A stretch of 23,136 nt of DNA from a virus, in IMG/VR virus record IMGVR_UViG_3300047668_001341, positions 1 to 23,136 of that record. The stretch is one strand, 5' to 3'. The position numbers and the translations under genes were made by a program. A model generated the notes under the pieces. That model ran no database searches and had not been told where the DNA came from. It saw nothing but the letters and a program-made list of their open reading frames with translations. Every line of letters starts with the position of its first letter. Within the stretch, counting starts at the first letter, position 1. Positions 6,418 to 23,136 of this stretch are shown in pieces.

Positions 6418-6968
6418 GTGAACACCACCGATACTGTAGCACCTGATGTTGTACCAAAAGGATTAGTAGTAGTCATCCAAATCCACGCCGTTCTTTTAGG
6501 CTCGGAACCCTGCGCATCATATTGATTAAAAGAAGCTATACTACTTCTAGCGTACGCTGTTGATCCTATAGTCATGGTGGTAAACCCGCTGTTTGCATGC
6601 CAACCTTCAAGCTGAAATTGGATAGTTTTAGTGTTTCCAAAGACGTTGAACTCTGCATAATGCAGAGCTTTTATATTTGCACCACTCTTAAAGTTACAAG
6701 TACCATCAGAAATACTACCCACCCCGGAACTAAAACCTCGATAGTATACAGTGGTACCCGAATTGTAAAGCCCTACAGTAACCGTTTGGCTATCGACACC
6801 AGAAGATGCTCCGTACCACTCTGAAAAAGCCATCTGAACACCCTCTGCTTTACCAATTAGAGCTCTAATATCTGCATCATTTATAGAGGCTTGGGTTTCC
6901 GATGAACCCCCTGCCTCTACATGGATTGCATTTAGAGTAAGTGCATTATATGCTGTTGTTAATGCCAC
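6414..6968 (-). CDS. Tail-tip associated structural protein with INDADIR/FSEWYG motif (184 aa)
   Basis: Residues about 28-57 contain SINDADIRALIGKAEG followed by MAFSEWYGAS. I have seen this short motif ('sindaDIR.Lig.a.G..m.fneWYGas') repeatedly in small proteins near the tail-fibre genes of marine phages; this is recollection, not a search result. The rest is a beta-rich domain of about 120 residues (VDSQTVTVGLY to GATVSVVFT) that may form a jelly-roll or Ig-like fold. The start codon is GTG, which shares one base with the TAG stop of the giant gene (TAGTG) and is preceded by GGGAG at 7 bases. Probably a virion protein attached to the tail tip; its exact role is unknown. Confidence 0.7.
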   Translation of the reverse strand: MALTTAYNALTLNAIHVEAGGSSETQASINDADIRALIGKAEGVQMAFSEWYGASSGVDSQTVTVGLYNSGTTVYYRGFSSGVGSISDGTCNFKSGANIKALHYAEFNVFGNTKTIQFQLEGWHANSGFTTMTIGSTAYARSSIASFNQYDAQGSEPKRTAWIWMTTTNPFGTTSGATVSVVFT

Positions 6969-9900
6969 TACTTATCTCCCTCTAATTTAGCCTTCAACTC
7001 TTTAACTTCTGCACTTAGTTCTTTAATTGCTTCAATCAAAAGTGGTACCATCTTTTCATATTGTACTGTTAGGTATCCCTGATCATTCAAAACTGGAGCA
7101 TCAGTTACTGCTTCAGGTAGTACTGCTTGTACCTCCTGAGCACTTACACCAACCCTAACTTTTCCTTGAGGATCGAGACCCAGCCTTACAGATTCGTCAT
7201 TAGGAGTAAAAGTAAAGCCATTCAACTCATTTACTTTATAAAGTGCATTTTCAATATTACCTAGCTTATCCTTTAATCTATCATCGGAATAGTAAGCGAT
7301 AATATCACCCTTACAGCGTATAGTATTAGCTACTGCACCGCTGGTTTGTCCAATCATTAGCCCTTCAAAAGCTACATTGTCGGTATTGGCAAGACCCAGA
7401 CCTGCACGAGTAGTAGGCGATCCTGGTGGTCCTGCAGGTATGGAGAATGCAAAGACTTTAGCAGTATTTGGACCTGACGATGTAATACCTATAGGTCCTG
7501 TTGTTGCTGTTGGAGTACCAAAACCAGCTGCTGGTCCTGGTGTAGTACTTGTTGGACCAGGAGGTCCTGCAGGTATGGAGAATGCAAAGACTTTAGCAGT
7601 ATTTGGACCTGATGATGTAACACCTATAGGTCCTGTTGTTGCTGTTGGAGTACCAAAACCAGCTGCTGGTCCTGCTACAGTACTTGTTGGACCAGGAGGT
7701 CCTGCAGGTATGGAGAATGCAAAGACTTTAGCAGTATTTGGACCTGACGATGTAATACCTATAGGTCCTGTTGTTGCTGTTGGAGTACCAAAACCAGCTG
7801 CTGGTCCTGGTGTAGTACTTGTTGGACCAGGAGGTCCTGCAGGTATGGAGAATGCAAAGACTTTAGCAGTATTTGGACCTGACGATGTAATACCTATAGG
7901 TCCTGTTGTTGCTGTTGGAGTACCAAAACCAGCTGCTGGTCCTGGTGTAGTACTTGTTGGACCAGGAGGTCCTGCAGGTATGGAGAATGCAAAGACTTTA
8001 GCAGTATTTGGACCTGACGATGTAATACCTATAGGTCCTGTTGTTACTGTTGGAGTACCAAAACCAGCTGCTGGTCCTGGTGTAGTACTTGTTGGACCAG
8101 GAGGTCCTGCAGGTATGGAGAATGCAAAGACTTTAGCAGTATTTGGACCTGATGCGGTAACACCTATAGATCCTGTTGTTGCTGTTGGAGTTCCAAAGCC
8201 AGCTGCTGGACCCGTAGGTCCCGCAGGTATGGAGAATGCAAAGACTTTAGCAGTATTTGGACCTGATGATGTAACACCTATAGGTCCTGTTGTTGCTGTT
8301 GGATTTCCAAAGCCACCTGCTGGACCCGTAGGTCCTGTAGGTATTGTGAATGCAAAGATTCTAGCAGTATTTGGACCTGAAGTAGAAATACCTAGAGGCC
8401 CTGCTGCTACTGTTGGAGTTCCGAAGCCAGCTGCTGGACCTACAATAGTACTTGCTGCACCAGGAGGACCTGGAGGTCCCGCAGGTATCGAGAATGCAAA
8501 GACTTTAGCAGTATTTGGACCTGAAAAGGTAATACCTATAGGTCCTGTTGTTGCTGTTGGAGTTCCAAAGCCAGCTGCTGGACCTGCTACAGTACTATCG
8601 GCACCGTCATCTCCATCATCTCCAGGAGCTCCCGGAGGGCCTGGAGGCCCGCCTGAAGGACCTGGAGGTCCCGGAGGTCCTTGAGGTATCGTGAATGCAA
8701 AGACTTTAGCAGTATCTGGACCTGATGTACCAATCGATAAAGCCCCCTCTGATACTGTTGGAACTCCAAAACCGGCCGCATCACCGTCCGTACCATCCGT
8801 ACCGTCGGAACCTGGAGGTCCTTCAGGTATAGTGAATGCAAAGACTTTAGCTGTATCTGGGCCTGATGAAGCAACACCTAGAGTTCCTGTTGCTAATGTT
8901 GGGGCTCCAAAGCCAGCTGCTGCACCCGGAGGGCCTGGAGCAGTACTTGCTGCACCCGGAGGGCCTGGAGGTCCGCCTGAAGGACCTGGAGGACCTGCAG
9001 GTATAGTGAATGCGAAAACTTTATTGGTATCTGGACCAGATGAAGAAATACCTAAAGCTCCTGTTGCTACTGTTGGAGTTCCAAAGCCAGCTGCTACACC
9101 CACACCATCATCACCATCTGTACCGTCCGTACCATTCGTGCCATTCGTACCATTCGTGCCGTCCGTACCATTCGTGCCATCCGTGCCATTCGTACCAGGT
9201 GTACCATTCGTACCATTCGTACCATTCGTACCGGCAGGTATAGTGAATGCAAAGACTTTAGCTGTATCTGGGCCCGATAATGTAACGCCTACAGCTCCTG
9301 TTGCTGCTGTTGGTGTTCCGAAACCAATTACTGCCTGTGAATCAATAGTTCCATCAGAAGCTATAGTAATATTAGTACCGGCAGTTAGTGCAGAAACTAC
9401 ATTAGCTGTAGTTGCTCCTACATAGTTACCAGCATTAATCACGGCACCTTCTTGATCAACTGCCCAATTTGCAGAAGCTAAGATAGGAAGACTGTAATTT
9501 ACATTAACACCAGAAAAAGTAGGAACATCAACTGCCGGTCCATCTTTAAATATAACTGCTAAGTTTAAAGCAGTAGCATTTGTGAGCTGGTATGACGATG
9601 TAACACTTAGCAGTTCGGAACCTGTCATCTGATTAGCAGAACTAGGAACAGCCATACTTTCTCTTAGAGCTTGAAATTCATTATTAACGGTAGCATCGGT
9701 CCAAGTTGTAGAGCCAAAAACTTGATTGCTATTATACTGCCAAGTTCCCGAATCCACTCGTGCAATTGGTCTTGAGCTAGCAGTACTCGATAAAATGCTC
9801 CAAGTAGTTTTAGAATCGTTAGAAATAGCATAAAATATACTATCATTCTGGTCAGTCGCAGTAAACTTGTTAACAATACCCCACGTACTAGTGTCAATAG

Positions 9901-12900
9901 TAGTATTTGCAATCATAGGCTGATAGCCTAATGAAGCTACTGTTCCACCAATCGTCTTTGCTTTGGTATAATTTCCTGCTATGTGAAAAAACTTAGTACC
10001 GTCCGGTTTAATAAATGAACCTCCGATGGAAGAACCAAAATTGCCCCCAATTGTAGAGAATATAGGAGAATCTACTGCACTACTAACATCCCATGCAGTC
10101 CCTAGTTCAAAGTGAGCCAACTCGATCCCGCTTTTTAGAAGTAGTCTAGTACCGAGTGTGTTGAAGAATACACCATGAATGCCGCCGCTGTTGTTACTTA
10201 GAAAGTCAAATGCACTGGATGCCGGATCGAAGGTCTCACTTGCGTCAGATGCGCTGGATACATCCCATGCGGTCGATAAATCGAATGTCTTCACCGTGGT
10301 GGTCGCTATATACATCTTAGTTCCGTCAGACTTAAAAGCTAAAGCCTTGCTGTACATAACCCCATGGTTGAACAAGCTATCGTAGCTAATGGTTGTTAAG
10401 TCCCACGCAGTTGATAAGCTGTAGCCATAAACAGTAGATCCGTTAGAGGGCTGTGTATTTTCGCCCACGGTTATAAAGATCTTAGTTCCATCAGGGCTAA
10501 ATTGTATACTATTACTAGGTACACCACCTCCCCATACAGTAGTAAGGAAAGTGGGCTCTGTGGGTGCCCAAACTTGTCCAGAATCAACTGTAAAGTTTCC
10601 ACCCCCAACAGTGGTTATATCCCATGCAGTCGATAAAGTCCAACGATACAGCTTTAAATCTTCAACACTCCATACAAACATTTTGGTGCCGTCACTACTA
10701 AAGTTGAGTGTTGAGACTCTGTGCGAAGCAGAGCCGGTGTAGCTAGTCGTAGCTCCCGACTTAAGTATAGTTGTATAGCTTCCTGTTCCTCGATAACCCC
10801 CTGCAAACGAGCTCGTGTTTGGATAGTCGTCAGTTGCAAAGCCTGCATCAAAAAGAGGGCCTCCAGAGCTGAGAGCTAATTTATCAGTTGTTGCATTATA
10901 GGTTATAGACTCAAGTTTCCAGTTTCCGGAAGTTTCCTGACCTGTCTGGCTAGAAGGTGCAACAACTTGAATAGCTCCGCCTGCTGCAGTTGTTAGTACG
11001 AAAATACCGCCTGACGTGCTGCCTGTAAACGTCTTACCTACCCATGACGCAGGGAAGTTAGTAGTATAGGAAACTCCATCTATAGTAAATCCAGATCCTC
11101 CATTCAAACGTATAGAAGTAGTCGTAGGCCAATCAAGAGTAGTAGCTTCTGCTATATCTTCATAGGTGAATCCAGTAGCTGATGCATCCCAGCTAGTAGC
11201 ATCGTCTTCAGTTATCGGAGGTATAGTTAGCTCACCTGTGGCCTCATCAAGGCTAACGCTATTGGAACCTTTTATGGAAGTCCTCCACGCAGGAACTCCA
11301 TTGGCGTCTGTTTGCCAAACCTTAGAATCCATACCCGCTCCAGATGTAACAAACCCATCTGCTGTTGCAGAGTTAGCTACATAAGCGGAAGAAAGTAAGT
11401 AACCACCAGCACTGTGATCACCCCATCCATAAGCTGTATTCCATTGAGTAGAGTCTCCTCCATCAGCTGTTACGTCTCCAAGTGTTGTGATATCGCCAGT
11501 GGCATCAAGGGTTCCACAAGTTATATTACCCTCACTATCTACAATCGTTGCATTATCAATTGTGATATTTGCTGTTAAATTTAAGCCAGTTCCTTCTACA
11601 TTACCTGCCGCATCAAATCCCTTTCCTGTAGTACCTATAACAAGTGATCCGTCGGACTGTATTGAGTTCCATTTAGTTATTAGCGCCGCTGTAATACCAC
11701 TTGATACATGAGCTGTGAATACAGGATCGGTCTCGGTATAAGCAGTTAAGTAGTTAAGAGCACTGTGATCACCCCATCCATAAGCTGTATTCCATTGAGT
11801 AGAATTACCGCCTGTTGCCGAAACTACACCTCCTGCGGGAACTCCTCCAGACTGAGCATTGTTCCAGTTAGTTATATCTGCGGCTGTAATAGCACTAGAA
11901 ACATGGGCTCCAAATACAGGGTCTGTTTCAGTGTAAGAAGTTAAGTAACCACCAGCACTATGATCACCCCACCCATAAGCTGTATTCCATTGAGTAGAAG
12001 TACCTCCCGTGGCTGTTATAATTCCAGTGGCGTCAAAACCAGTTCCGCTGCCATCAAGATCGAGACTTCCGTCTGTTGATATAGCGTCGCCCGCATTATT
12101 CCATTTAGTTATTAGAGCTGCTGTAATACCACTTGATGCATGAGCTGTGAATACAGGATCTGTTTCAGTAAAAGAAGACAGATACCCTTCACTACCATGA
12201 TCACCCCATCCATAAGCTGTATTCCATTGAGTAGAGTCTCCTCCACTAGCTATCATATTTGCTGTAGTTGTAATATCACCCGTGGCATCAATGGTTCCAG
12301 TAGTTATATTACCAGCATTATCAATCACTGTTGTACCAGCAATAGTTAAACCATCTGTTCCAAGTGTTGCTTCTACTGCACCCGCACCTACTCCTCCTGC
12401 AAAAAGTTTCTTATTAGCATCTACTAGAGCACTATTATTAATTTTTATCTCTAAAGTAACGTCTACGCCACTGATATTCTTTAGGTTACGATTAGAGTCT
12501 ATGACCTCTGTACCGCCTATTTTTAGGTTTGTAAAGTCAGCCTCTAATCCTATCAAATTGCCTGTAAGCGTTCCGCCGGCTAGATCTAATTTTAAATCAT
12601 CTGCTGCCGATAATAAACCATCTGCTGCATCTGTATAAGCTTTTGTTACTGCATCTTGGTTTGCTGTAGGATCACCAAGACCTGTAATCTTGGAAGTACT
12701 CATTGCTATGGCACCGGTCATTATACCACCACTTAGAGGTAGATGCCCTATCTGGGAATAAGCATAAGCAGTGTTCCACTGACTAGAATTACCCGCACTA
12801 GCAGGAGCTATAGTTGTAATATCGCTACTAAACGTTTTTGCTCCTGCTATAGTTTGAACACCAGCAGTCCTTACAACTGTCGAGTCTACAGAAATAGTTG

Positions 12901-15900
12901 CGTCACCTTTTATAGTGTCAGGCCCTGTTATTCCATCTCCTGCAATAATGGAAGTAATATCTCCATCTGCTAGACCTGTAGTGCCGTATCCTTGATCAAG
13001 AACTAGAAAACCTCTGCTAGCAGGGTCTGCAATTGCCTCGAGTAACCGAGAACCCTCGGCAATAGGAGCTATTCCTCCTGTAAACTCTATCTCAATATCA
13101 AAATAGTATATACCTACGGTAAGAGTCCTTGTTACTTCTTTTGTAATATACCCTTCACCATCTACTGCTCCAAGAGTTCCAGTTCTAGGATAGTCGATAC
13201 TGTAATCAGATTCTATAATTCCTGCTGATACGGCATTATCTAAATTGGGTGTTACTATGTACTGATTAGCAGTAGGTGTTCCGGAAGTGACTCTTGTAAA
13301 GTTGTTTGTAGACCAATGATCAATTATAGTGGCGGGGCTTGCGTCAGCAAGACTGGTTCTTTCAAACATTCTTGCTTTGATACTAGTAGGTATATGAGTT
13401 AAGATAGTAGCTGTTAGATCAGGCACAGCTGTAGTATTCTCAACAGTTGCCGCAATATCAGCCCCTTTTATTGAATAATATACAACTGTAGTACCTTGAC
13501 TATTAGCATATCCTGTTACAGTCTCTTTATATAATAGTCTAGTATACTCTACGCCTCCGGCAGTGAGAGTGCCAAGATCATTAGTGTTAGTACCTAGTAA
13601 ATTTCCGTCATAATACCAAGTCTGAATACTTGTGTTCAAATCCTCTGCTACATAAGAGTAAGGTGTCGATGCTCTACTATATAATTCAGGACCCTGACCT
13701 GATAAACCAGCTTTGAAAGCTATATTACTCTCTCCAGCTCTTTCTACTAAAAATCCAAACTCTTGCCCTGCGACTGCTTTGAAAGAGAATTCTTGTTTAT
13801 TCTTTGTCAGCGTAGTACTCGCGGGGTAAGCTGTACCATCTAGTTTAGTAGCTCCAGTAACAGTTGTAAGTTTGGTGTACCCTTGGTCAGCACCATGTAT
13901 AGCTATTACTATAACTTCTCCACCTTTTAAAGCTCTGTCAAAAGAGGAAAACGTTGCACCACCATCTCTTGTTACTTGAAGATCTGATCTTTTATAATTT
14001 GCTCCATGGTCGTGGGCAAATATTGTCAAACCTAGGGAAGACGACTCTATATTCTGTGCAAAATACTCTTCACTGAGATGCTTTGAGAAATTGTCTACAG
14101 GTACTCTCATCTTAAAGGTTACATCGGTAGTTTCTTCAATTTCTATTTTTTGATACGTAGTTCCAACTGCTGTATTAAAGTCTGCTGTTAAAGTAGCAGG
14201 AAGATTATATATTCTAGCTTTTTCTATTCCGCCAGCTGTCTGAGCAATAGCAGATGCACTAACACCAGTAGTAGAATCAAAGTGTATAGTACCATTGTCT
14301 CTGTATAGCTGTAAGTTCTTAGCTACCGCATGACCATTGTTTGCTACCCTAAGCGGGGCTACCTGAGGACTTTCACTTCCCGCGTATACTCTCCAATTCT
14401 CATTGGCACCATCCAATGCAGCATAAGAGCTATCAACAGTATCACCAGCACCGTCTTTCTGGTATACAGCTATTTTTGTGTGGGGATAAATATTCTCCCC
14501 ACGAATAGTATGAGCTGCAATTTTATCATAGGTAATCGAACCTGTTTTTATACTGGCACCTGTTATTGTATTATCACCTATAATAGTATCATCAATAGTG
14601 CCTACTGCAATAATAGACCCTGCGTCAAGAATATCTGCGCTTATAGATACTAAAGGAATTAGTATGTATGGGTTGTTCCTAAATACTTTTGCTACTATTA
14701 TATCTTCTTCGGTATCTATAAATATATTTGTTGTCTGAAATGATTGTGAGGCATAGGCAGTAGCTACAGACTTATCCACTACCATTGAGGTATTACTATC
14801 AATACCGACAATTCTATATAAATCATTATGATTTGTTGCTTTAAACACCTCTCCTACCTTACATTCAGTGCTAAAACTTGTTCCTGTGCCTACAATAAGA
14901 TTCGAACTAGCTGCTTTAGTAATCGTACCTGTTAAAGTTATTAGTCCTGAAGTATCACTACCATTACCCGCATCATACCAGTAAGGATGAGCATAAGTTG
15001 TGTTATCGTATTTAATTAGTTTTAAACGATCACTCACAGAAGACGCATCCATTAGAATATAATGATGATTGGCGTTGAATGAAGGAGTAGCGGGCCCAGC
15101 CGGTATGTTAGCTAAACCTGAGCAATCCTGTTCATACATAGTCTCAGGGTTAACGCTGGTACCTTTAAAAATAGTACCATCAGTACTCTGAGGAATTATT
15201 ATATAGCTACCTTTAACTCCGGGCTTCGTAGTGCCTAAACTAAATTTACCTGATGCGTCTATGCTCATACCTACATTACTAGTGCCTCCAACAGGGATTC
15301 CTAGTGGGTACTGAAGACCTGATAAAGCCTTAACATCACCTATGGTTATTGTGGCTACTTTACTTGTAGATCTATTGTCCAAAGTGTTTACCGTACGCAC
15401 TTTAACTATATACTCGCCTTCAGGAGTGTCCTTGGCCACTATCGAATTGACGCCTGCAGGCACTCTTAAAGGAGTTTGTAAGCTAGTGATATTATGTACG
15501 ATTTCATAACCTGCTAAATATTCATAGTAAGTACCGGCAGAGGCATTTAGAGCAGCAGGGTGTGTCCACGATATTTTAAAATTCTGTCCTTCCGCTGAGG
15601 TTGCAGGTAAAAAGGTCGCTTGAAGATCAAGAGGTGGCGGAACAACATCTGTAGCCCTTATAGAAGGGATTAAAACTTCCTCGTGATACGCTACAAAGTT
15701 ATTCTCTATTGAATCGAATTTTTCATTATAATGTTCGACTGCGGTTATATTTTGGTCAGTTTCACTGGACTGAGATATACTTAGAATTTTGTATTCTTTA
15801 GGTGATCCCTCAAAAGCATTACCATTAGCATCTTTTTCAGTAATAACCCAGATAGCACCCACTGTGGGCGCTTCTGTAAAGGCATTCGCACTAGCAATGG

Positions 15901-18900
15901 TTATAGCATTGACATTTGAGTCAGGCACTGTATTACTAATAGCGGCTTTCTCTACCCGAGTATATTCTGACCAAGTTACTTCAACAGAATTAGAACTGTC
16001 ATCTACTAGATTACTAGCAGCAGTTTCTGTAGTAATCGTAGGTATTAAATCTCCTCTGCTATAAGTCACACTACCTATTACAGCACTAGTTTGAGCTAAA
16101 AAGGCTCCTGGTTCCGCAATTAAAACACTTAGTTCATAGCTACGATTAGATATTAGGTTGATGGGCCCGTCAAGAATTAAACTGGTTGTTGTAGGCGTAG
16201 CAGCTGCACTTATTCTGCCACTGAAACGTACAGCATGTCTATCTGCATCTTGAACATTTATAATGTCTCCCGGAGCTAAAAAAGCTGCATTAATAGAGGT
16301 TGCAAAGCTGACTACTTCTGTTTGATTAATTGCCGTCCAAAGCTTCCAACGGCCATAGCGCTTGGCTTGACCTTCTGAAGTACAGCCAAACGCGACAGCT
16401 TCTTCGGTTATAATTCTTGCATTCTCTATGATATCTCGCTTGTCTTCTACAATTAATGCTTCGAGCATGTAACTTGCGTCTGGATTGTTCCAGGAAACAA
16501 CAATTTGATTATATCTAGTTTTACTTCCTGTACTTTCGTAAACAAAAGCACCATCAATTATATTGCCTTTAGAAAAGTTGTACACAGGTTCTTTTGCTTG
16601 ATCTATCACAGGATATACTTGACCATCCATCCAATAGATCATACTTCTAAATGTTGTGGCCATATCCTTGAGAACTTTGTAGCAGTCTGCTGATTTGGCG
16701 AGTAGTAGATTAGCCGTGAATCTTGGCTCCTCTCCTCCGAATCCATCGGGTACAAGCTCGTCGCAATATCTTGCTATTCTATACAAAGAGTATTTATCTA
16801 TTAGTGTCTCTTCAAGAAAGCTCCCTAGACCATAGCGATTATTAATAAGAATATCATAAAAGACCCAAGCAGGGTTATTAGTGTATACTTTAGCAGTTCT
16901 AAAGGTTCCATCCCAGTCTTGATACGTAGTTTGGATATTATCACTAGAATCTCTTGTATAAGAAGCTATACCTCCATTTTCGTCTCTTGTTACATAGTTG
17001 GAAGGGACTTTAACCAATAAACCCTTCATGTGATATGAACGAGTTGGTAGGGTCTTAAATTGTTCGGAGTTAAAACTTACTTGACCTAAAGCAGTGTAAG
17101 GGTAGCTCATAGGCTCTTTAATAATAGTAGTAACTCCTTGTATCTGAGATCCGGCTGTTTGAATCCACACGCCACGTTTGAGATTTAACGGGCCAGTGGA
17201 GCTATGTACCTTATATCTCGCATGTACGTCTGAGCTGAGCCTCTCTACGAATACTTTAAAGTTAATAAAAGGCTTGTATCGTGCTAGAGATATAACTTCT
17301 TCAAAAAGTACTGCATCTTTTGTGCCACCCCAATTTTCGTCACCATCCCCAAAATGAGATTTAATACCCTGTATTACTATGGGGTCGTCAAAGGTTGCAT
17401 TTCCGGGTTTTTGAATAGCTATTGAAAACCTATAATGTGCGGACGCTTCTCCGTGTTTGTCTTCTCCTTTTTTCTGGCTATAGAGACTTCCTGGATATCC
17501 AATATTTATTTTAACTTGGTCAGCTTGCTGTGCTTGCTCAAGACTTAGTCGAAAACCTGCTGTACTAGAAACTCCTATTATTTCCGTAGCAAATATACCT
17601 GCCGCGTCCGCCGTGTCGTCGGGGTGCGTATCTCCGCCTGCCGCCACTATCTCGGCATGAGCCGCGGCGGTTTGTTTCAACTCAGTGGGTGAGATAGTAC
17701 CTCCTGGTATAGATTGCACCCCCGATCCTGCAAAGCCTGAGAAAGGCGCTTGATCAATAGTACCGCGCCTAAATTGTGCCGATAGCCCTTCATACGTCCC
17801 GGTAAAATTCTCTTGATTACCTTTCCAGATATCTAACTGCCCAGTAGTTAATTTAGTTTCCCATACCTCGAATGCAAACTCTTGTGTACTGCTTATCCCG
17901 CTGCCTGCATAAACAGCCCAATTCGCATAGGCAAAGGCCGATGGCCATTCACGTATACTACCTACGCTCAGATTGTTTTCGTTAAAGGACACATTTAAGA
18001 TTATCTTATCTACTTCTATAGAATAACTTCCTGACAAGACTACATGATCGGCTTCTATTCCGTCTGTGGCCCCTGTAAAAGTGGCAGTTAATCCATTTGC
18101 AGAAATTTTAGTAAGACGACCTTTGACCTGAAGACCAGTTGAGTCTGTCAATGTTATAGCATCAAAAGGTGGCGGTTTATATGCGTCGGACAGCTTATCA
18201 ATAGTAGCGTCATATGCCGATATTTGGTCCTGCATCATATGTTCATTGAAAAAAGCTGTTGATGCAGTAAGAGTATAGCTTCGAGAATTATTTTCGCTAA
18301 GAGGGTCGTCAGTGGCGATAACGGTGGCTGTTCCAAGCCCTTTCTTTACTATGATACTTTTGAAAAACGTACCATAGATGTTGATGAAGTTTGGGGGAGC
18401 GGGAAACTTAATATCTCCACCGCCCACACTAGTCATAACAGAGCTACCAGCTGTTAAACTGATTCGCGCTGGGCCTGTCGATGTTAGTTGCGACCCTTGC
18501 GCCAAGGGTTGAATTCTATCATCATTCAAAAATATAGAAGATAAGCCATGTACTAGGCCGTGTATGGGGCCTTCTGCAATAACATCTGTAACAGTTATAT
18601 CTTGAGTAGACCCATAAAAGGTACCCTCTAGCCTGTTTCCTTCTAGATCTATTACTCCAGGAGTTCTTCCCGCCTTTGTAGCTTCCCCCCACATAGGTTG
18701 ATCAACTGCATCCATTGCCATGGATATAGGTCTACCCGGTATCCTTAACTCTCCGTAGAATACAGGAACTGGATCTCCCTCTTTAATATTTTGTCCCTGA
18801 CCGTCAAATAGGTAGTCTTCTGTCCCTGCGTCAGTGGCGGGATCCGGAGCCATTATTCCTCCAATTCCTTGCAGAGCTAAACTAGTTCCGAGCGTTGAAA

Positions 18901-19273
18901 TTGCAGTAGTCAGTGCAGTTGTTGCTCCTGCACTGAGCCCGGCCATGCCGGCTAATGGGGCTGCGTAGAATATTAAGATTGCGCCTGCTATAACCTTAAC
19001 TACATCGCCACCTGATCCGGCGGGGATAGCTGCAAAAGTAATATCTCCTTCCCTTAGTGGAAGTAGAAGCTCCTCTTCTAGTTTGAGAGGATCATTTTCT
19101 GTTTGAAAAGTAAAGCCTATACCTTTTTCGTTTGCATCTAATAGGTATCTTCTAAACGTTGGATGGTTTGATTCCATACACTTAATAACGTCTACATAAG
19201 TAGAGGCTTCTACTTTAAAACTGCTTCCAAATTTTTCGGCTAAGTCGCCAACTAAGTAAACTTTACGCATCAT
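6968..19273 (-). CDS. Giant gpI-gpJ tail-tip hub and central fibre with S74 chaperone (about 4101 aa)
   Basis: Residues 1-190 match lambda tail assembly protein I: a ubiquitin-like YLVGDLAEKFGSSF opening, a hydrophobic stretch at about 89-143, and VPVFYGELRIPGRPIS. From about 222 the gpJ-like hub begins (DVIAEGPIHGLVHGLSSIFL) and includes the hallmark NPAWVFYD...NNRYGLG and ARYCDELVPDGFGGEEPR near 800-850. A fibronectin III-like domain lies at about 1212-1318, then fibre shaft, WGDH/ETDPVF repeats, a propeller-like segment (about 2838-3114), a 13-unit GFGxPT repeat array with collagen-like linkers (about 3315-3956) and an S74 chaperone with SDDRLK starting at Ser3996. Lambda gpI (223 aa) and gpJ (1132 aa) are separate, so this is a fusion with a huge extension. 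The ATG at 19273 was chosen because GGAG lies 9 bases upstream; an in-frame TTG at 19288 has no such site. It overlaps gpK by 11 bases. Confidence 0.93.
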   Translation of the reverse strand: MMRKVYLVGDLAEKFGSSFKVEASTYVDVIKCMESNHPTFRRYLLDANEKGIGFTFQTENDPLKLEEELLLPLREGDITFAAIPAGSGGDVVKVIAGAILIFYAAPLAGMAGLSAGATTALTTAISTLGTSLALQGIGGIMAPDPATDAGTEDYLFDGQGQNIKEGDPVPVFYGELRIPGRPISMAMDAVDQPMWGEATKAGRTPGVIDLEGNRLEGTFYGSTQDITVTDVIAEGPIHGLVHGLSSIFLNDDRIQPLAQGSQLTSTGPARISLTAGSSVMTSVGGGDIKFPAPPNFINIYGTFFKSIIVKKGLGTATVIATDDPLSENNSRSYTLTASTAFFNEHMMQDQISAYDATIDKLSDAYKPPPFDAITLTDSTGLQVKGRLTKISANGLTATFTGATDGIEADHVVLSGSYSIEVDKIILNVSFNENNLSVGSIREWPSAFAYANWAVYAGSGISSTQEFAFEVWETKLTTGQLDIWKGNQENFTGTYEGLSAQFRRGTIDQAPFSGFAGSGVQSIPGGTISPTELKQTAAAHAEIVAAGGDTHPDDTADAAGIFATEIIGVSSTAGFRLSLEQAQQADQVKINIGYPGSLYSQKKGEDKHGEASAHYRFSIAIQKPGNATFDDPIVIQGIKSHFGDGDENWGGTKDAVLFEEVISLARYKPFINFKVFVERLSSDVHARYKVHSSTGPLNLKRGVWIQTAGSQIQGVTTIIKEPMSYPYTALGQVSFNSEQFKTLPTRSYHMKGLLVKVPSNYVTRDENGGIASYTRDSSDNIQTTYQDWDGTFRTAKVYTNNPAWVFYDILINNRYGLGSFLEETLIDKYSLYRIARYCDELVPDGFGGEEPRFTANLLLAKSADCYKVLKDMATTFRSMIYWMDGQVYPVIDQAKEPVYNFSKGNIIDGAFVYESTGSKTRYNQIVVSWNNPDASYMLEALIVEDKRDIIENARIITEEAVAFGCTSEGQAKRYGRWKLWTAINQTEVVSFATSINAAFLAPGDIINVQDADRHAVRFSGRISAAATPTTTSLILDGPINLISNRSYELSVLIAEPGAFLAQTSAVIGSVTYSRGDLIPTITTETAASNLVDDSSNSVEVTWSEYTRVEKAAISNTVPDSNVNAITIASANAFTEAPTVGAIWVITEKDANGNAFEGSPKEYKILSISQSSETDQNITAVEHYNEKFDSIENNFVAYHEEVLIPSIRATDVVPPPLDLQATFLPATSAEGQNFKISWTHPAALNASAGTYYEYLAGYEIVHNITSLQTPLRVPAGVNSIVAKDTPEGEYIVKVRTVNTLDNRSTSKVATITIGDVKALSGLQYPLGIPVGGTSNVGMSIDASGKFSLGTTKPGVKGSYIIIPQSTDGTIFKGTSVNPETMYEQDCSGLANIPAGPATPSFNANHHYILMDASSVSDRLKLIKYDNTTYAHPYWYDAGNGSDTSGLITLTGTITKAASSNLIVGTGTSFSTECKVGEVFKATNHNDLYRIVGIDSNTSMVVDKSVATAYASQSFQTTNIFIDTEEDIIVAKVFRNNPYILIPLVSISADILDAGSIIAVGTIDDTIIGDNTITGASIKTGSITYDKIAAHTIRGENIYPHTKIAVYQKDGAGDTVDSSYAALDGANENWRVYAGSESPQVAPLRVANNGHAVAKNLQLYRDNGTIHFDSTTGVSASAIAQTAGGIEKARIYNLPATLTADFNTAVGTTYQKIEIEETTDVTFKMRVPVDNFSKHLSEEYFAQNIESSSLGLTIFAHDHGANYKRSDLQVTRDGGATFSSFDRALKGGEVIVIAIHGADQGYTKLTTVTGATKLDGTAYPASTTLTKNKQEFSFKAVAGQEFGFLVERAGESNIAFKAGLSGQGPELYSRASTPYSYVAEDLNTSIQTWYYDGNLLGTNTNDLGTLTAGGVEYTRLLYKETVTGYANSQGTTVVYYSIKGADIAATVENTTAVPDLTATILTHIPTSIKARMFERTSLADASPATIIDHWSTNNFTRVTSGTPTANQYIVTPNLDNAVSAGIIESDYSIDYPRTGTLGAVDGEGYITKEVTRTLTVGIYYFDIEIEFTGGIAPIAEGSRLLEAIADPASRGFLVLDQGYGTTGLADGDITSIIAGDGITGPDTIKGDATISVDSTVVRTAGVQTIAGAKTFSSDITTIAPASAGNSSQWNTAYAYSQIGHLPLSGGIMTGAIAMSTSKITGLGDPTANQDAVTKAYTDAADGLLSAADDLKLDLAGGTLTGNLIGLEADFTNLKIGGTEVIDSNRNLKNISGVDVTLEIKINNSALVDANKKLFAGGVGAGAVEATLGTDGLTIAGTTVIDNAGNITTGTIDATGDITTTANMIASGGDSTQWNTAYGWGDHGSEGYLSSFTETDPVFTAHASSGITAALITKWNNAGDAISTDGSLDLDGSGTGFDATGIITATGGTSTQWNTAYGWGDHSAGGYLTSYTETDPVFGAHVSSAITAADITNWNNAQSGGVPAGGVVSATGGNSTQWNTAYGWGDHSALNYLTAYTETDPVFTAHVSSGITAALITKWNSIQSDGSLVIGTTGKGFDAAGNVEGTGLNLTANITIDNATIVDSEGNITCGTLDATGDITTLGDVTADGGDSTQWNTAYGWGDHSAGGYLLSSAYVANSATADGFVTSGAGMDSKVWQTDANGVPAWRTSIKGSNSVSLDEATGELTIPPITEDDATSWDASATGFTYEDIAEATTLDWPTTTSIRLNGGSGFTIDGVSYTTNFPASWVGKTFTGSTSGGIFVLTTAAGGAIQVVAPSSQTGQETSGNWKLESITYNATTDKLALSSGGPLFDAGFATDDYPNTSSFAGGYRGTGSYTTILKSGATTSYTGSASHRVSTLNFSSDGTKMFVWSVEDLKLYRWTLSTAWDITTVGGGNFTVDSGQVWAPTEPTFLTTVWGGGVPSNSIQFSPDGTKIFITVGENTQPSNGSTVYGYSLSTAWDLTTISYDSLFNHGVMYSKALAFKSDGTKMYIATTTVKTFDLSTAWDVSSASDASETFDPASSAFDFLSNNSGGIHGVFFNTLGTRLLLKSGIELAHFELGTAWDVSSAVDSPIFSTIGGNFGSSIGGSFIKPDGTKFFHIAGNYTKAKTIGGTVASLGYQPMIANTTIDTSTWGIVNKFTATDQNDSIFYAISNDSKTTWSILSSTASSRPIARVDSGTWQYNSNQVFGSTTWTDATVNNEFQALRESMAVPSSANQMTGSELLSVTSSYQLTNATALNLAVIFKDGPAVDVPTFSGVNVNYSLPILASANWAVDQEGAVINAGNYVGATTANVVSALTAGTNITIASDGTIDSQAVIGFGTPTAATGAVGVTLSGPDTAKVFAFTIPAGTNGTNGTNGTPGTNGTDGTNGTDGTNGTNGTNGTDGTDGDDGVGVAAGFGTPTVATGALGISSSGPDTNKVFAFTIPAGPPGPSGGPPGPPGAASTAPGPPGAAAGFGAPTLATGTLGVASSGPDTAKVFAFTIPEGPPGSDGTDGTDGDAAGFGVPTVSEGALSIGTSGPDTAKVFAFTIPQGPPGPPGPSGGPPGPPGAPGDDGDDGADSTVAGPAAGFGTPTATTGPIGITFSGPNTAKVFAFSIPAGPPGPPGAASTIVGPAAGFGTPTVAAGPLGISTSGPNTARIFAFTIPTGPTGPAGGFGNPTATTGPIGVTSSGPNTAKVFAFSIPAGPTGPAAGFGTPTATTGSIGVTASGPNTAKVFAFSIPAGPPGPTSTTPGPAAGFGTPTVTTGPIGITSSGPNTAKVFAFSIPAGPPGPTSTTPGPAAGFGTPTATTGPIGITSSGPNTAKVFAFSIPAGPPGPTSTTPGPAAGFGTPTATTGPIGITSSGPNTAKVFAFSIPAGPPGPTSTVAGPAAGFGTPTATTGPIGVTSSGPNTAKVFAFSIPAGPPGPTSTTPGPAAGFGTPTATTGPIGITSSGPNTAKVFAFSIPAGPPGSPTTRAGLGLANTDNVAFEGLMIGQTSGAVANTIRCKGDIIAYYSDDRLKDKLGNIENALYKVNELNGFTFTPNDESVRLGLDPQGKVRVGVSAQEVQAVLPEAVTDAPVLNDQGYLTVQYEKMVPLLIEAIKELSAEVKELKAKLEGDK
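6971..7288 (-). other. S74 peptidase / intramolecular chaperone domain (self-released tail)
   Basis: The last 106 residues of the giant protein. They start at SDDRLK, where the serine and the lysine five residues later form the Ser-Lys dyad of the endosialidase/S74 chaperone family, and cleavage occurs just before the serine. The segment continues with a KVNELNGFTF strand, VGVSAQEVQAVLPEAV and YEKMVPLLIEAIKEL, and ends in a charged coiled coil (SAEVKELKAKLEG). In this family the domain trimerises, folds the fibre upstream and is then released. Here it implies that the fibre is a homotrimer and that mature chains are about 3995 residues long. Confidence 0.9.
7428..8216 (-). repeat. Near-identical 135-bp tandem DNA repeat (six copies)
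   Basis: Copies begin at 7428, 7563, 7698, 7833, 7968 and 8103, exactly 135 bases apart; the sixth is shorter because its linker is shorter. Reading them by eye, the copies at 7428, 7698 and 7833 are identical over 135 bases. The copy at 7968 differs at one base and the copy at 7563 at about five. Each encodes 45 residues of the giant fibre. Such identity implies recent amplification or gene conversion and makes copy number prone to change or to assembly collapse. Confidence 0.93.
9104..9233 (-). repeat. Collagen-like GTN/GTD microsatellite
   Basis: Fourteen successive Gly-X-Y triplets, nearly all GTN or GTD with one GTP and one GDD, encoded by a 9-base tandem pattern (plus strand ccattcgta and variants). 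It forms the linker between units 1 and 2 of the 13-unit array. Gly-X-Y runs in phage fibres form trimeric collagen-like rods, which agrees with the trimeric S74 chaperone that follows. Confidence 0.9.
9930..10760 (-). repeat. Propeller-like STAWD repeats in the giant fibre
   Basis: Four or five degenerate repeats of about 45-75 residues, each with 'F..DGTKmf' followed by 'y.lSTAWDvss'. Clear copies end in STAWDITT, STAWDLTT, STAWDVSS and GTAWDVSS, and a final FIKPDGTKFF copy lacks the STAWD end. A DGTK turn followed by strands is typical of beta-propeller blades. The segment at about residues 2838-3114 is probably a folded globular domain inserted in the fibre, possibly a glycan- or receptor-binding head. 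Confidence 0.75.
11385..12243 (-). repeat. STQWNTAYGWGDH / ETDPVF shaft repeats
   Basis: Four copies of STQWNTAYGWGDH, three of them followed by a 'YL.s.tETDPVF.AH.SS.ITAA.I..WN' block. A fifth, divergent copy (SSQWNTAYAY) lies near 12750..12790. The DNA core of about 40 bases is nearly the same in all four copies, and the spacing between copies varies from about 195 to 350 bases. The motif is frequent in long fibre shafts and is consistent with a trimeric beta-structure. Confidence 0.85.
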
Positions 19274-19967
19274 AACGATATACTCCAATTATATATTTCT
19301 TCCATTGAGGGAAAAGATTCTCTCTACATGATATTCTATTTATTGCGTGGTGGTAAAAAAGGTCTTCTCCAATATATACTCCACAATGATTTGATACTTC
19401 TGACATTACTTTAAAAATTAACAAGTCTCCCTCTTGCATAGGGCCTTCTACTTTATTGAAGCCCCAAGTGTTTATATTGTTCTCTGTAAAATAATCAGCC
19501 CCGTCTATCCACCAACGATCTTTAGGGAGGTGGAAAGGACGTTTCAATATTGTTAAATCTTTAGACTTGTAATAATCTGTAATTGCAGAAAAGCAGTCAT
19601 TGACTCCTAGTTCATAGTCTCTTCCGACCAAAGATTTAGTTTCACGAATAGGGTCTAATTTAAACATATCCATCTCTGGATAACTAAAAATGTAATAAGG
19701 AATTCCTAACGCATTGCAGTACTTTATATCAAAATTACTAGGTTCAGGGGAGGCATCTGGGTGGCTATGAACTATTCCTACTATATCGCATTTTTGTGAT
19801 ATAGTAATGTACTGGCCTGAGTCAATTACAAACTCAGTTCCCTTCTCTGCTATATTGTCGCAAGGAAACCATTTTAACTCTCCTCTTACTACTCCTATTA
19901 CTCCACAACCTTCTTTTGGGTACCACTCTTTTAAATGTTGTTCGATTTGATCTAAAAGTGTTATCAT
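19263..19967 (-). CDS. gpK-like tail tip protein: JAMM peptidase plus NlpC/P60 hydrolase (234 aa)
   Basis: A two-domain enzyme of the lambda gpK type. Residues 1-100 are a JAMM/Mov34 zinc metallopeptidase domain with every expected ligand visible: Glu19 in PKEGCGVIG, and HSHPDASPEPSNFD, an exact H-x-H-x7-S-x2-D signature (His67, His69, Ser77, Asp80). Residues 115-234 are an NlpC/P60 cysteine peptidase domain with Cys125 in GVNDCFSAI, His194 in NHCGVYIG and a further His206/207. NlpC/P60 domains cut peptidoglycan peptide bonds. In tail operons such proteins act in tail-tip assembly or in local wall degradation during DNA entry. The ATG overlaps the gpL-like stop (ATGA), and the end overlaps the giant gene by 11 bases. 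All catalytic residues are intact, so both domains are probably active. Confidence 0.93.
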   Translation of the reverse strand: MITLLDQIEQHLKEWYPKEGCGVIGVVRGELKWFPCDNIAEKGTEFVIDSGQYITISQKCDIVGIVHSHPDASPEPSNFDIKYCNALGIPYYIFSYPEMDMFKLDPIRETKSLVGRDYELGVNDCFSAITDYYKSKDLTILKRPFHLPKDRWWIDGADYFTENNINTWGFNKVEGPMQEGDLLIFKVMSEVSNHCGVYIGEDLFYHHAINRISCRENLFPQWKKYIIGVYRYDA

Positions 19968-21103
19968 CTGTAGCTTCCACTCGCAGGAAATGCTCCGAAA
20001 GGTAAGGTATGTGCCGTATTGTATTTAGAAGAGGGGCCATATTCGTCGACATCTTTGTTAGCAGGAACTGCTTGAAATCTAGATTTACAAGAAGTTAGAG
20101 CTTTTCCGCACACATCTCCGCGTCTCCAATAAATTCTTCCAGTAACTGTTGTTGGGGCTTGGTTTACATGTTCAGCAACACAAACCCAGACAGTTTCCTG
20201 CCCTGAAGTGCCATGCTTTGCATAGTCTCCAACAGAAAAAGTTGTAGAAGCATCCCAATCAATATATCTATAGCACTCTTTCCAGTATGCTGAAGAGGTT
20301 GAAGGTGTATAGTTTAAGTTATCATCATATAAGCTAAGCCAGGTCTTACCACTATCATATATTACAATACTTGAAGTAGTATAAGTTGTCGAGGCAGAGT
20401 AAGTAGCATAAATTTCAGGACTTGTAGCAGGGATTATAGGATTGTCGTCTTCTGTAAAATAAAAGTGATTGAACTTAGCTGTATTCCCTGCCGTATTTGC
20501 GTGTGAGTACTTACTGTCCTTCTTCCAAGTACAACCTCCATAGCTAGGTGTAGAATAGAAACCTTGATATGCCCAACTACAGTATTTTCCTATTATTCTT
20601 CTACGAGGTAAATCTATGCCTTCGAGATCTAGAGGAGACGCTAGCTCAAAAGATATATGAGTACCTGTCTCTGCGGAAATTCTATCAATAATATATCGTC
20701 GAGTAGGGAACTCAATAGGTATCTGCCCTGTGGAACTACCTGGATTTCCTCCTACTAAGTGTCGTGCAAGGGTTTGTCTACGAATTAAAGTCTTGCCGAT
20801 TAAGTCTTTGTTCTTTAGACCATTAAGTGAAGCTTTAAATACTGTAGTAACGTTGGCCATGGTTATTTCTGGCCTACTTTGCGCTCCGTCTGCTTGTATC
20901 TGCATTTTATCTATTTCTATAGGCAGAGGTACATAAGTATTAATAGTCGATCCATCTAACGATATAAACTTTACATCTCCTAAAGAAGTATCTACTCCGC
21001 TATGAAAGTAAACGAAACTGCCGTTAATTTCTAGTTCAAAAAGGGTTACAAGGGGGCTATCAATGTACTGCCCCTGTACATCTGATGCAATTACATTACT
21101 CAT
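19964..21103 (-). CDS. gpL-like minor tail protein with an inserted binding module (379 aa)
   Basis: Lambda minor tail protein L family, a tail-tip component that binds an iron-sulfur cluster. The N-terminal 160 residues form the tail-tip beta domain (SPLVTLFELEINGSFVYFHSG). The C-terminal region carries four cysteines in the expected pattern: Cys175 (GKYCSWAYQG), Cys191 (YGGCTW), Cys332 (GDVCGKA) and Cys339 (TSCKSRF). Lambda gpL is about 232 residues; the extra length is mainly an insertion at about 231-330, between the second and third cysteines. It shows two copies of a short aromatic module ('Y.ast.Y..s..V.y.gk.W.s......N..P......W' and 'Wdast.fsvGdya...g...W.c...h.n..P......yW') resembling type 5/12 chitin-binding modules. 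The start overlaps the gpM stop (TAATG). Confidence 0.9.
   Translation of the reverse strand: MSNVIASDVQGQYIDSPLVTLFELEINGSFVYFHSGVDTSLGDVKFISLDGSTINTYVPLPIEIDKMQIQADGAQSRPEITMANVTTVFKASLNGLKNKDLIGKTLIRRQTLARHLVGGNPGSSTGQIPIEFPTRRYIIDRISAETGTHISFELASPLDLEGIDLPRRRIIGKYCSWAYQGFYSTPSYGGCTWKKDSKYSHANTAGNTAKFNHFYFTEDDNPIIPATSPEIYATYSASTTYTTSSIVIYDSGKTWLSLYDDNLNYTPSTSSAYWKECYRYIDWDASTTFSVGDYAKHGTSGQETVWVCVAEHVNQAPTTVTGRIYWRRGDVCGKALTSCKSRFQAVPANKDVDEYGPSSKYNTAHTLPFGAFPASGSYR
20114..20413 (-). repeat. Two tandem carbohydrate-binding-like modules inserted in gpL
   Basis: This segment encodes residues 231-330 of the gpL-like protein and splits its four-cysteine cluster. Both modules share a Tyr/Trp-Asp-Ala-Ser-Thr-Thr opening, a short strand pair and a closing 'P-x(4-8)-Y/W-W' pair. 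That is the layout of small aromatic-rich chitin or polysaccharide binding domains. The assignment rests on the pattern only. Confidence 0.6.
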
Positions 21104-21471
21104 TATTCATATACTCTTCTAAAAGTTGCTGTGGCACTATAAAAATTATCATAGTCGTATTTTTGTGTGTAAGTATCACACACTACTGTAATTGTAGTCT
21201 CCGAGCCAGAACCATTCGAATCTGGAATTGTAAAGTTAAAAGGTACTACACCGTGTTTTGTATCGAAAAAAGCTACTATATCGTCAATATCATTTTTTGT
21301 GCGGTTATTGAAAGACAAGTTATATGATTCTGATAAACCATTGATACCATCTCTTAATCTTTGCTCATAACCATCTCCAAACGTAGCTAGCTTCACTTTT
21401 GGTGAGGTGCTACGAGTAAGTTGTTTATCGGGGGATATATTTGTTGCCCCTACAGTAAATCCCAATGCCAT
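21103..21471 (-). CDS. gpM-like minor tail protein (122 aa)
   Basis: Lambda minor tail protein M family (about 109 residues in lambda), which links the end of the tail tube to the tip. The diagnostic motif is VKLATFGDGYEQRLRDGING at about residues 26-45, followed by ESYNLSFNNRTKNDIDDIVAFF, HGVVPFNFTIPD and a closing VVCDTYTQKYDYDNFYSATATFRRVYE. This is the expected order for the family. Length is as expected, with no insertions. The start shares one base with the tape measure stop (TAATG) and is preceded by GGAG at 7 bases. The stop shares one base with the gpL start. Confidence 0.93.
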   Translation of the reverse strand: MALGFTVGATNISPDKQLTRSTSPKVKLATFGDGYEQRLRDGINGLSESYNLSFNNRTKNDIDDIVAFFDTKHGVVPFNFTIPDSNGSGSETTITVVCDTYTQKYDYDNFYSATATFRRVYE

Positions 21472-23136
21472 TATGCTACTCCATAGGGGCTAAGTATGCC
21501 TCCTGATCTTTTTTGTGTTTGTAGTTCTTTTTGAACCGCTTTTGCTATATGTGCACCAAGTCTCTCGAAATCAGGACCAGAACTATCTGACGTACTTACT
21601 GAACCGTCCTGACTTATGTTTACAACTACACTATTGTTTTGCTGACCTGCGTTCTGAGGCATATCTACAGGTATAGACTTACCATTAGGTAAGGGTACGA
21701 CTGCTTCTGTTCCATGTAGTAGTGCTGGGTACCCAGCTCCTGGCCCTCTTGCTACTCCTCCGGTTGCATAGCCCTGAACTTTCTGTCCCATGCTAATAAC
21801 ACCTCCGTTTCTCGCCGCAGGAGCTGGTGCTCCAAATAAACTCGATATCCAGGTAATAGCAGTTGAAAGGAAATCACCTCCGCCGCCGCCGCCGCCGCCA
21901 CCGCCGGAACCAGGAGCAAAGAGGTTCATTATAGTAGAGCCAAAATCGGAAAAGAAGCTTCCCAGTTTTGAAAAGAATCCAGTCTCACTTTCTCCCTCAG
22001 CTTTGTCTTTTTCCCCGAACAAATTCATTACCCATTTACCCATGTCTCCAAGCATAGACATTAGTCCTCCTTCATCACCTTCCTCGCCTTCTTTTGATTT
22101 AAATAAACCTATAATCCAGTTTCCTAAGTTCATAAACATATCCCACAGATTTTGGAAGAATCCTTTTTCTTTCTTTGCGTCCTCAGCACCCTTTGACTTG
22201 AATAAGCCTGTGACCGCACCAACTGTCGTGTCGAGTATTTCCGCAATGTTAGCGAAAAAACCTCCATCCTCTTCAAGAGCTGCTGAGACACCTGTTTCAA
22301 TGTCTTTAGCCACAGTAGATGCTGTAGGCATAAATTCAGGGCCATTCATTGGGGGACTATCTGGAGCAGGATTCCCTTCACGTGGCCAACTAGTTTCTAT
22401 ACCTTCTCCTGTATCTGGAACTGGATGTGTTGTTGCTCCGGAGTTTTTCAGCACTGCCTTTACTGCTCCAACAACAGCTGCAGCTGCAGCTCCTGCTTCT
22501 TCACCTCCTCCTGGGCATTTTGGAGTGCAAAGATTTGCAGCAAGTTCAGCAGCTCCTACTCTACAAGCCGTTTCAATCGCGTTACCCATAGCTTCTGCAC
22601 CGGTCTGGCTAGATTTGGTAATTGCTTTTGCGGTTGTTGCCGCGCCTTTATTCATAGCAATCTTAATTTTAGCGGCTGTAGTATCAGCTCCAAAGATCGC
22701 ATCCATTATATTCTCTGCCAGCCGTTCGGCTAGTTTGTCTGCGATTGCGCTTAATACACTTTCTGCGAGTGTGAGCATTGCGTCTTTAAAGCTTTTTTCT
22801 TCATTTTTTATAAGAGCAGCTATACCGTCCGCCAGGCCAGCATTCATCGAATCTCTGATAGTTGCTTGCATCTCATACTCACGAGTTAATTTAGCGTTTT
22901 CTGCTACTATTTCTTTTGTAGTCTCAAGCCACTCAGGAGTAATATCTATACCCTTTGCTAAGGCTTTTAAAACTTGTTCTTGTACTGCTTGTTGTTGCTT
23001 CGACCAAGCAAAGTTTTCAGACTTGAATTTTGTTATCTGCCCTTCAGCCCTCATCTCATTCTGTTGCATTATTCCCGCATTTTTTGCTATATGAAGTGCT
23101 TGACGAGCTGAAAGTACAGCTGACTTTGCTGCTTCA
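21471..23136 (-). CDS. Tape measure protein (gpH-like), C-terminal part, cut by right edge
   Basis: The frame stays open to the window edge (upstream codons encode EAAKSAVLSARQALHIAKNAG), so the first ATG at 23069 is internal and the true start lies outside. The visible 554 residues contain the lambda tape measure C-terminal signature (DSMNAGLADGIAALI, then a helix KSFKDAMLTLAESVLSAIAD), an Ala/Gly-rich middle, five amphipathic repeats with acidic-basic linkers, a run of ten glycines, and the usual end GYATGGVARGPGAGYPALLHG-TEAVVPLPNGK. Tape measure proteins set tail length and travel into the host during DNA ejection, and the hydrophobic segments fit a role at the inner membrane. In this family the C-terminal part is often trimmed on assembly; no cleavage site can be assigned here. 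Confidence 0.9.
   Translation of the reverse strand, partial: EAAKSAVLSARQALHIAKNAGIMQQNEMRAEGQITKFKSENFAWSKQQQAVQEQVLKALAKGIDITPEWLETTKEIVAENAKLTREYEMQATIRDSMNAGLADGIAALIKNEEKSFKDAMLTLAESVLSAIADKLAERLAENIMDAIFGADTTAAKIKIAMNKGAATTAKAITKSSQTGAEAMGNAIETACRVGAAELAANLCTPKCPGGGEEAGAAAAAVVGAVKAVLKNSGATTHPVPDTGEGIETSWPREGNPAPDSPPMNGPEFMPTASTVAKDIETGVSAALEEDGGFFANIAEILDTTVGAVTGLFKSKGAEDAKKEKGFFQNLWDMFMNLGNWIIGLFKSKEGEEGDEGGLMSMLGDMGKWVMNLFGEKDKAEGESETGFFSKLGSFFSDFGSTIMNLFAPGSGGGGGGGGGGDFLSTAITWISSLFGAPAPAARNGGVISMGQKVQGYATGGVARGPGAGYPALLHGTEAVVPLPNGKSIPVDMPQNAGQQNNSVVVNISQDGSVSTSDSSGPDFERLGAHIAKAVQKELQTQKRSGGILSPYGVA
21825..22265 (-). repeat. Five amphipathic helix repeats in the tape measure protein
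   Basis: Five related segments, about 20-25 residues each, spaced about 30-35 residues apart: GGFFANIAEIL...VTGLFKSK, KGFFQNLWDMF...IIGLFKSK, GGLMSMLGDM...VMNLFGEK, TGFFSKLGSFF...IMNLFAP and GGDFLSTAITWISSLFGAP. Each starts with Gly plus a hydrophobic pair and ends with a hydrophobic 'LF' followed by a short charged linker rich in Glu and Lys. The pattern suggests tandem duplication of a membrane-active helix. Confidence 0.75.
21879..21906 (-). repeat. CCG/GGC trinucleotide run encoding polyglycine
   Basis: A run of CCG-type triplets on the plus strand encodes ten consecutive glycines in the tape measure protein, between the fourth and fifth amphipathic repeats. Its GC content contrasts sharply with the surrounding AT-rich DNA. 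Length changes by slippage would stay in frame. Confidence 0.9.

Follow-up and report, generated by a model that had tools for sequence, protein, structure and literature searches.

The 23,136-nucleotide stretch of viral DNA analysed here (the window) encodes, in one open reading frame, a complete homologue of the phage lambda tail assembly protein gpI joined to the hub protein gpJ, a long fibre and a C-terminal Peptidase_S74 chaperone. The single frame, the homologies of its parts, their predicted folds and their conservation are direct observations, and we conclude that an uncultured lambda-type siphophage very probably uses the chain as its central tail-tip protein, with the plug protein gpI linked covalently to gpJ, the protein of hub and fibre. 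The arrangement is known from other phages and is elaborated here; it is not a new kind of machine.

Extent and parts of the fused frame

The frame (19273..6968, minus strand) runs from an ATG at 19273 to a stop codon ending at 6968, is free of internal stop codons and encodes 4101 residues with a mass of 424,683 Da (Table 1). Its residues 1-192 match positions 3-200 of the 203 in the gpI profile phrog_32 (E 3.7e-29), and a PDB sequence search aligns the lambda gpI chain 8iyk_I with residues 2-203 (E 2.8e-11); the homology spans the whole length of the family, with a complete TAPI in frame with TAPJ. The gpJ profile phrog_31 covers residues 710-1313 (E 4.6e-130), the lambda gpJ chain 8iyk_J was retrieved from the PDB sequences at E 4e-57, and homology to the hub core (HDII-HDIV, Phage-tail_3) is present in the fused chain. 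At the C-terminus, the Pfam Peptidase_S74 model matches residues 3996-4057 (E 1.7e-10, 41.5 bits against a cut-off of 22), and alignment of the motif shows that its Ser/Lys pair is kept, as Ser3996 and Lys4001; self-cleavage would be expected from membership of this family. An earlier note on this DNA had described a complete gpI-like N-terminal region (residues 1-190), a gpJ-like core, a long fibre and an S74 chaperone in a single frame of about 4101 codons, and on each of these points the reading frame and the profile matches agree with it.

The FN3 domain that the same note had placed after the hub is less certain. The stretch at residues about 1205-1313 appears FN3-like by eye and from its place inside the match to the gpJ profile, but Pfam FN3 gave no match in the fused chain at E up to 0.1. 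The Pfam FNIII-A model, which matches several fused relatives, had no match in the window, and a PDB sequence search with residues 1200-1501 found no relatives. Within the fibre (residues 1314-3995) we recognise a BppL_N-like piece, five TQWNTAYG-type repeats and a GFGxPT/collagen-like array built on a 45-residue unit, together with propeller-like repeats that were recognised by eye only and whose region has just two weak relatives, too few to model. The size of the chain is an ordinary consequence of this fibre.

Table 1. Features of the fused frame and its neighbours (residues numbered along the fused chain).
Feature	Coordinates	Strand	Basis
gpI-gpJ-fibre-S74 fusion, single ORF of 4101 aa	6968..19273	-	ORF reading and Pfam/PHROG profile matches
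gpI ubiquitin-like (beta-grasp) domain, residues 1-86, last residue invariant Gly86	19016..19273	-	AlphaFold strands 2-84, fold matches, conservation
Two hydrophobic helices, residues 88-141, counterpart of lambda gpI H1/H2	18851..19012	-	AlphaFold model; PMC11101478
gpI plug/strand segment, residues 150-190, motif GDPVPVFYG	18704..18826	-	phrog_32; 9e7m_Ic, 8iyk_I; conservation
Fusion linker, residues 191-222; gpI stop and gpJ start at this place in relatives	18608..18703	-	
gpJ hub (HDII-HDIV region), residues about 223-1200	15674..18607	-	phrog_31, Phage-tail_3, 8iyk_J, folds 8xcg_J and 7zqp_b
FN3-like stretch, residues about 1205-1313	15335..15661	-	Within phrog_31 match
Central fibre shaft and head, residues 1314-3995, ~2700 residues	7289..15334	-	Repeats, BppL_N-like piece
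Peptidase_S74 intramolecular chaperone, residues 3996-4101, Ser3996/Lys4001	6968..7288	-	Pfam and motif
gpK homologue, JAB metallopeptidase and NlpC/P60 domains	19263..19967	-	Pfam, PHROG
gpL homologue, separate hub piece	19964..21103	-	PF05100, phrog_18
gpM homologue	21103..21471	-	PF05939, phrog_14
Tape measure gene end, cut by window edge	21471-23135		By position

Integrity of the gpI-gpJ junction

Since the window is a metagenome contig, and a stop codon separates the gpI and gpJ genes in its nearest kin, an assembly or sequencing error might have hidden a stop or frameshift within the fusion. We consider the chance of this to be negligible. Two contigs from other IMG/VR samples (L002 and L003) match the window at an identity of at least 99.97% (99.99 and 99.98%), gap-free over the junction, and the agreement of three contigs makes a frameshift or assembly artefact there very unlikely; the occurrence of fusions with differing linkers in 33 nonredundant loci also argues against it. 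No indel between the gpI and gpJ parts is found in these contigs; a stop or frameshift there was what the earlier note had named as evidence against a fusion. Nor is a separately initiated gpJ likely in the fused loci, to judge from their sequences: an in-frame ribosome site and start occur at none of 35 fused junctions, compared with 69 of 105 unfused gpJ genes in the same scan, in keeping with the claim of that note that gpI and gpJ form one product.

L002 and L003 stop short of the collagen-like repeats, at about residues 1531 and 2638, so that the residues after 2638, the C-terminal third of the chain with its S74 domain, come from the assembly of the window only. This part includes a tandem array (7428-8209) of 5.8 copies of a 135-bp unit, 97% identical, whose copy number is uncertain and may have been miscounted in assembly. 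Because the unit consists of whole codons, the frame would survive such a miscount, although the chain could become longer or shorter in steps of 45 residues. Two long plus-strand ORFs opposite the repeat array (7377-8684 and 8691-9425) reflect its 45-residue unit and do not point to genes there.

Predicted structure

An AlphaFold model of residues 1-1043, built with 66 relatives (mean pLDDT 72), is monomeric and carries no information on trimer contacts. In it a beta-grasp domain is followed by two helices, by plug strands and by a gpJ-like hub, with a linker of low confidence. When residues 1-87 of the model were compared with ubiquitin-like proteins (VIA-align), SAMP1 gave Z 8.8 (2l52) and 8.7, and human MoaD 5mpo gave 8.4. 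The hub part matches the lambda hub 8xcg_J with Z 16.3, and the T5 hub pb3 (7zqp_b) matches with Z 15.3 over residues 158-883, a span that begins inside the gpI part. Prediction of residues 1-121 from the single sequence was poor (pLDDT 50).

Distribution of the fusion and its possible link with S74

Seven collection scans, centred on fused queries as well as on the window, yielded 316 nonredundant gpJ loci: 33 with the fusion, 278 with separate genes and five with no gpI in view. With sampling around fused queries, 33/316 is not a prevalence; it does imply that the fusion is maintained and recurrent. Well-supported branches force two changes of gene arrangement in a gpJ tree of close relatives, and a wide gpJ tree contains at least four: in the window lineage, in a clade of 31 viral contigs, in a Paraburkholderia prophage (L216) and in an Azospirillum prophage (L231/L232). 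The nearest relatives of the window (L090-L092 and L008) have gpI and gpJ as separate genes, with a stop codon and a ribosome site between them in L090-L092, and the linkers of the fused loci differ in length and sequence. Among about 400 genomes of one bacterial phylum gpI is mostly separate, with some partial gpI matches inside long frames; four such frames and an Achromobacter phage were read, and in each the hub and the gpI plug lie in the same chain, adjoining, where this was checked, an NlpC-type protein without JAB. The survey indicates that parts of the siphophage hub have repeatedly been merged from separate genes. One gpJ locus close to these viral contigs, L164 (PBHZ01000026.1), is titled as a Euryarchaeota MAG and is probably a mis-binned phage contig.

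A terminal S74 domain is present in 13 of 13 complete fusions among the viral contigs, against 5 of 189 complete unfused gpJ proteins, a contrast that is new to our knowledge; the two prophage fusions have no S74. For the first measurement of the link, the profile had been trained on fused proteins. The rarity of S74 in unfused gpJ is confirmed by the Pfam S74 model, which was not trained on these sequences and matches 1 of 65 unfused gpJ C-termini. By counts, with ancestry ignored, the link reaches 7e-15 in Fisher's test; by tree-aware pairs it is two for and none against, which is not significant. Nearly all these fusions belong to one clade, leaving only two informative independent comparisons, and the link is therefore unproven.

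Comparison with known tail tips

The window shares its domains and gene order with the lambda tail tip (8iyk, 8k35, 8xcg), and a 3:3 copy number is expected in the window phage too, but lambda has two genes for gpI and gpJ where the window phage has one. Lambda gpJ has 1132 residues and carries no S74 domain. The lambda virion contains three gpI and three gpJ, the three gpI plugging the lumen of the gpJ trimer (PMC11101478, PMC10721106). The earlier note had said that fusion forces a fixed 1:1:1 stoichiometry; as the ratio is already 3:3 in lambda, fusion imposes nothing new in this respect, and what it alters is covalency. The separateness of the two proteins, also asserted there, is true of lambda but not universal, given the prophage fusions (PMC1779556) and the plug-hub single chain of cultured Achromobacter phages.

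The authors of the lambda tail-tip studies compared gpL, gpI and gpJ together to the single hub chain of T5 (PMC10721106, PMC11101478). In T5 pb3 (7zqp, 7zhj) plug and hub share one chain, as in the window fusion, but the T5 chain contains HDI as well, a domain that lambda has in gpL. The window retains gpL as a separate gene (19964-21103) and so does not have HDI, plug and HDII-IV in one polypeptide; its fusion is a partial step towards a hub made of one chain.

The joining of gpI and gpJ as such was already known: Iyer et al. (2006, PMC1779556) reported in-frame TAPI-TAPJ fusions in some prophages, with TAPK carrying JAB and NlpC domains in the same gene neighbourhood, and took TAPI not to be part of the mature tail. 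The window has gpI in frame with gpJ as they do, and differs in its much longer fibre, its S74 domain and its origin in a metagenome phage. A literature search that had most subscription journals outside its reach returned no paper that describes a gpI-gpJ fusion under those names, nor any that describes an S74 domain on gpJ. Plug-hub single chains such as those of Achromobacter phage Axy14_029 (1165 aa) and loci L460-L463 likewise have the C-terminal part of gpI and the hub in one frame; in these chains, however, the ubiquitin-like domain is divergent or missing and the neighbour is NlpC-only, and Pfam scans of the three genome hubs covered found no S74. Tail fibres with S74 chaperones (Peptidase_S74, PF13884) have a C-terminal domain with an SDxRLK motif, as does the window chain. 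Such chaperones usually occur on side fibres or tailspikes, not on a hub fused to gpI.

Proposed assembly and its alternatives

We infer trimerisation, plugging and two cleavages for the fused chain. Three chains would form the hub, and each would place its gpI helices and plug segment in the lumen, there to hold the tape measure and DNA as the separate gpI of lambda does. The fibre of ~2700 residues would trimerise with the help of its C-terminal S74 domain, which would then cut itself off at Ser3996. With plug joined to hub, every hub would have a plug by construction, the native 3:3 ratio being unaltered. The N-terminal ubiquitin-like domain would be an assembly part, perhaps removed at Gly86 by the JAB domain of gpK.

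This last step follows a 2006 proposal that the JAB of gpK frees the ubiquitin-like domain at its last glycine (PMC1779556). Gly86, which ends the domain, is present in 246 of 246 aligned gpI sequences. The window gpK matches Prok-JAB (E 1.2e-14) and NLPC_P60 (E 6.1e-11) in Pfam and has the E...HxHx10D metal motif. The motif is present in each of the 32 fused loci for which gpK can be seen, including six in which gpK has no NlpC but keeps JAB. Cleavage is thus possible, and on these sequence patterns we would give removal at Gly86 by JAB somewhat less than an even chance; we know of no test of the proposal. Evenly balanced, in our judgement, is a form of the same explanation in which JAB makes no such cut and the domain stays on the tail tip, where it would be a module of the fused chain with a structural or membrane-facing role. 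In some natural plug-hub fusions a glycine-rich, ubiquitin-like-looking N-terminus is retained next to an NlpC-only, gpK-like protein, so that the domain can apparently persist without being cut, and JAB may serve some other purpose. Lambda gpI, moreover, is found in virions by mass spectrometry, with its N-terminus unseen in structures (PMC10721106, PMC11101478); lambda gpK is not among the virion proteins (PMC10721106). Against an uncut domain stand the invariance of Gly86 and the retention of JAB in the fused loci, the six without NlpC included.

A cut between gpI and gpJ, within residues 191-222, would instead give a lambda-like mature virion and make the fusion a device for co-translation. 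The variation of the linkers in length and sequence, and their low confidence in the model, would suit such a cut, but no protease motif is shared among the linkers of the fused loci and plug-hub single chains exist in cultured phages, and we think it improbable; if gpI is cut at all, a site inside gpI after the ubiquitin-like domain is likelier. Returning to the covalently joined plug and hub, a fuller version is unlikely: both ends would be trimmed, by JAB after Gly86 and by S74 at Ser3996, leaving residues 87-3995 as the mature chain, and gpI-gpJ fusion and S74 gain would have co-evolved for very long central fibres. The fusion offers a clean readout, in that one large virion band would show, by its size and its N-terminus, whether the ubiquitin-like domain has been removed, and the main use of the fused phage is as a test case for removal of the front end of the plug during assembly.

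Two further hubs bear on the N-terminus. L460 (G184 C29) has a hub frame of 1810 aa with a gpI plug, no recognisable ubiquitin-like domain and an NlpC-only neighbour, and is a candidate natural deletion. Salmonella phage Jersey gp32 (L464 6538-9096), a gpJ-like hub, has a tethered N-terminal domain left unplaced by its authors (PMC13243795); the order of GGG, helix and hub resembles fused gpI, but we rejected this domain as a fused gpI, the direct profile comparison not being significant.

Neighbouring genes

The gene order around the fusion is that of a standard lambda tail tip: the end of the tape measure gene, gpM, gpL, gpK and the fused frame. One fused subclade (L140, L143, L145-L148) has a JAB-only gpK of about 119 aa (L140 3630-3986), from which NlpC/P60 is gone. 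The gpL homologue of the window is long (379 aa), and Phage_tail_L covers only its residues 32-181; the insert that follows, before a Cys-rich end, resembles carbohydrate-binding repeats (W/Y-rich, by eye), and the fused relative L140 has the same kind of gpL insert. Elsewhere in the window, 2059-5016 on the minus strand encodes a 985-aa protein with repeated internal segments, among them two copies of GGDESVTING followed by KRLTDAHMG.
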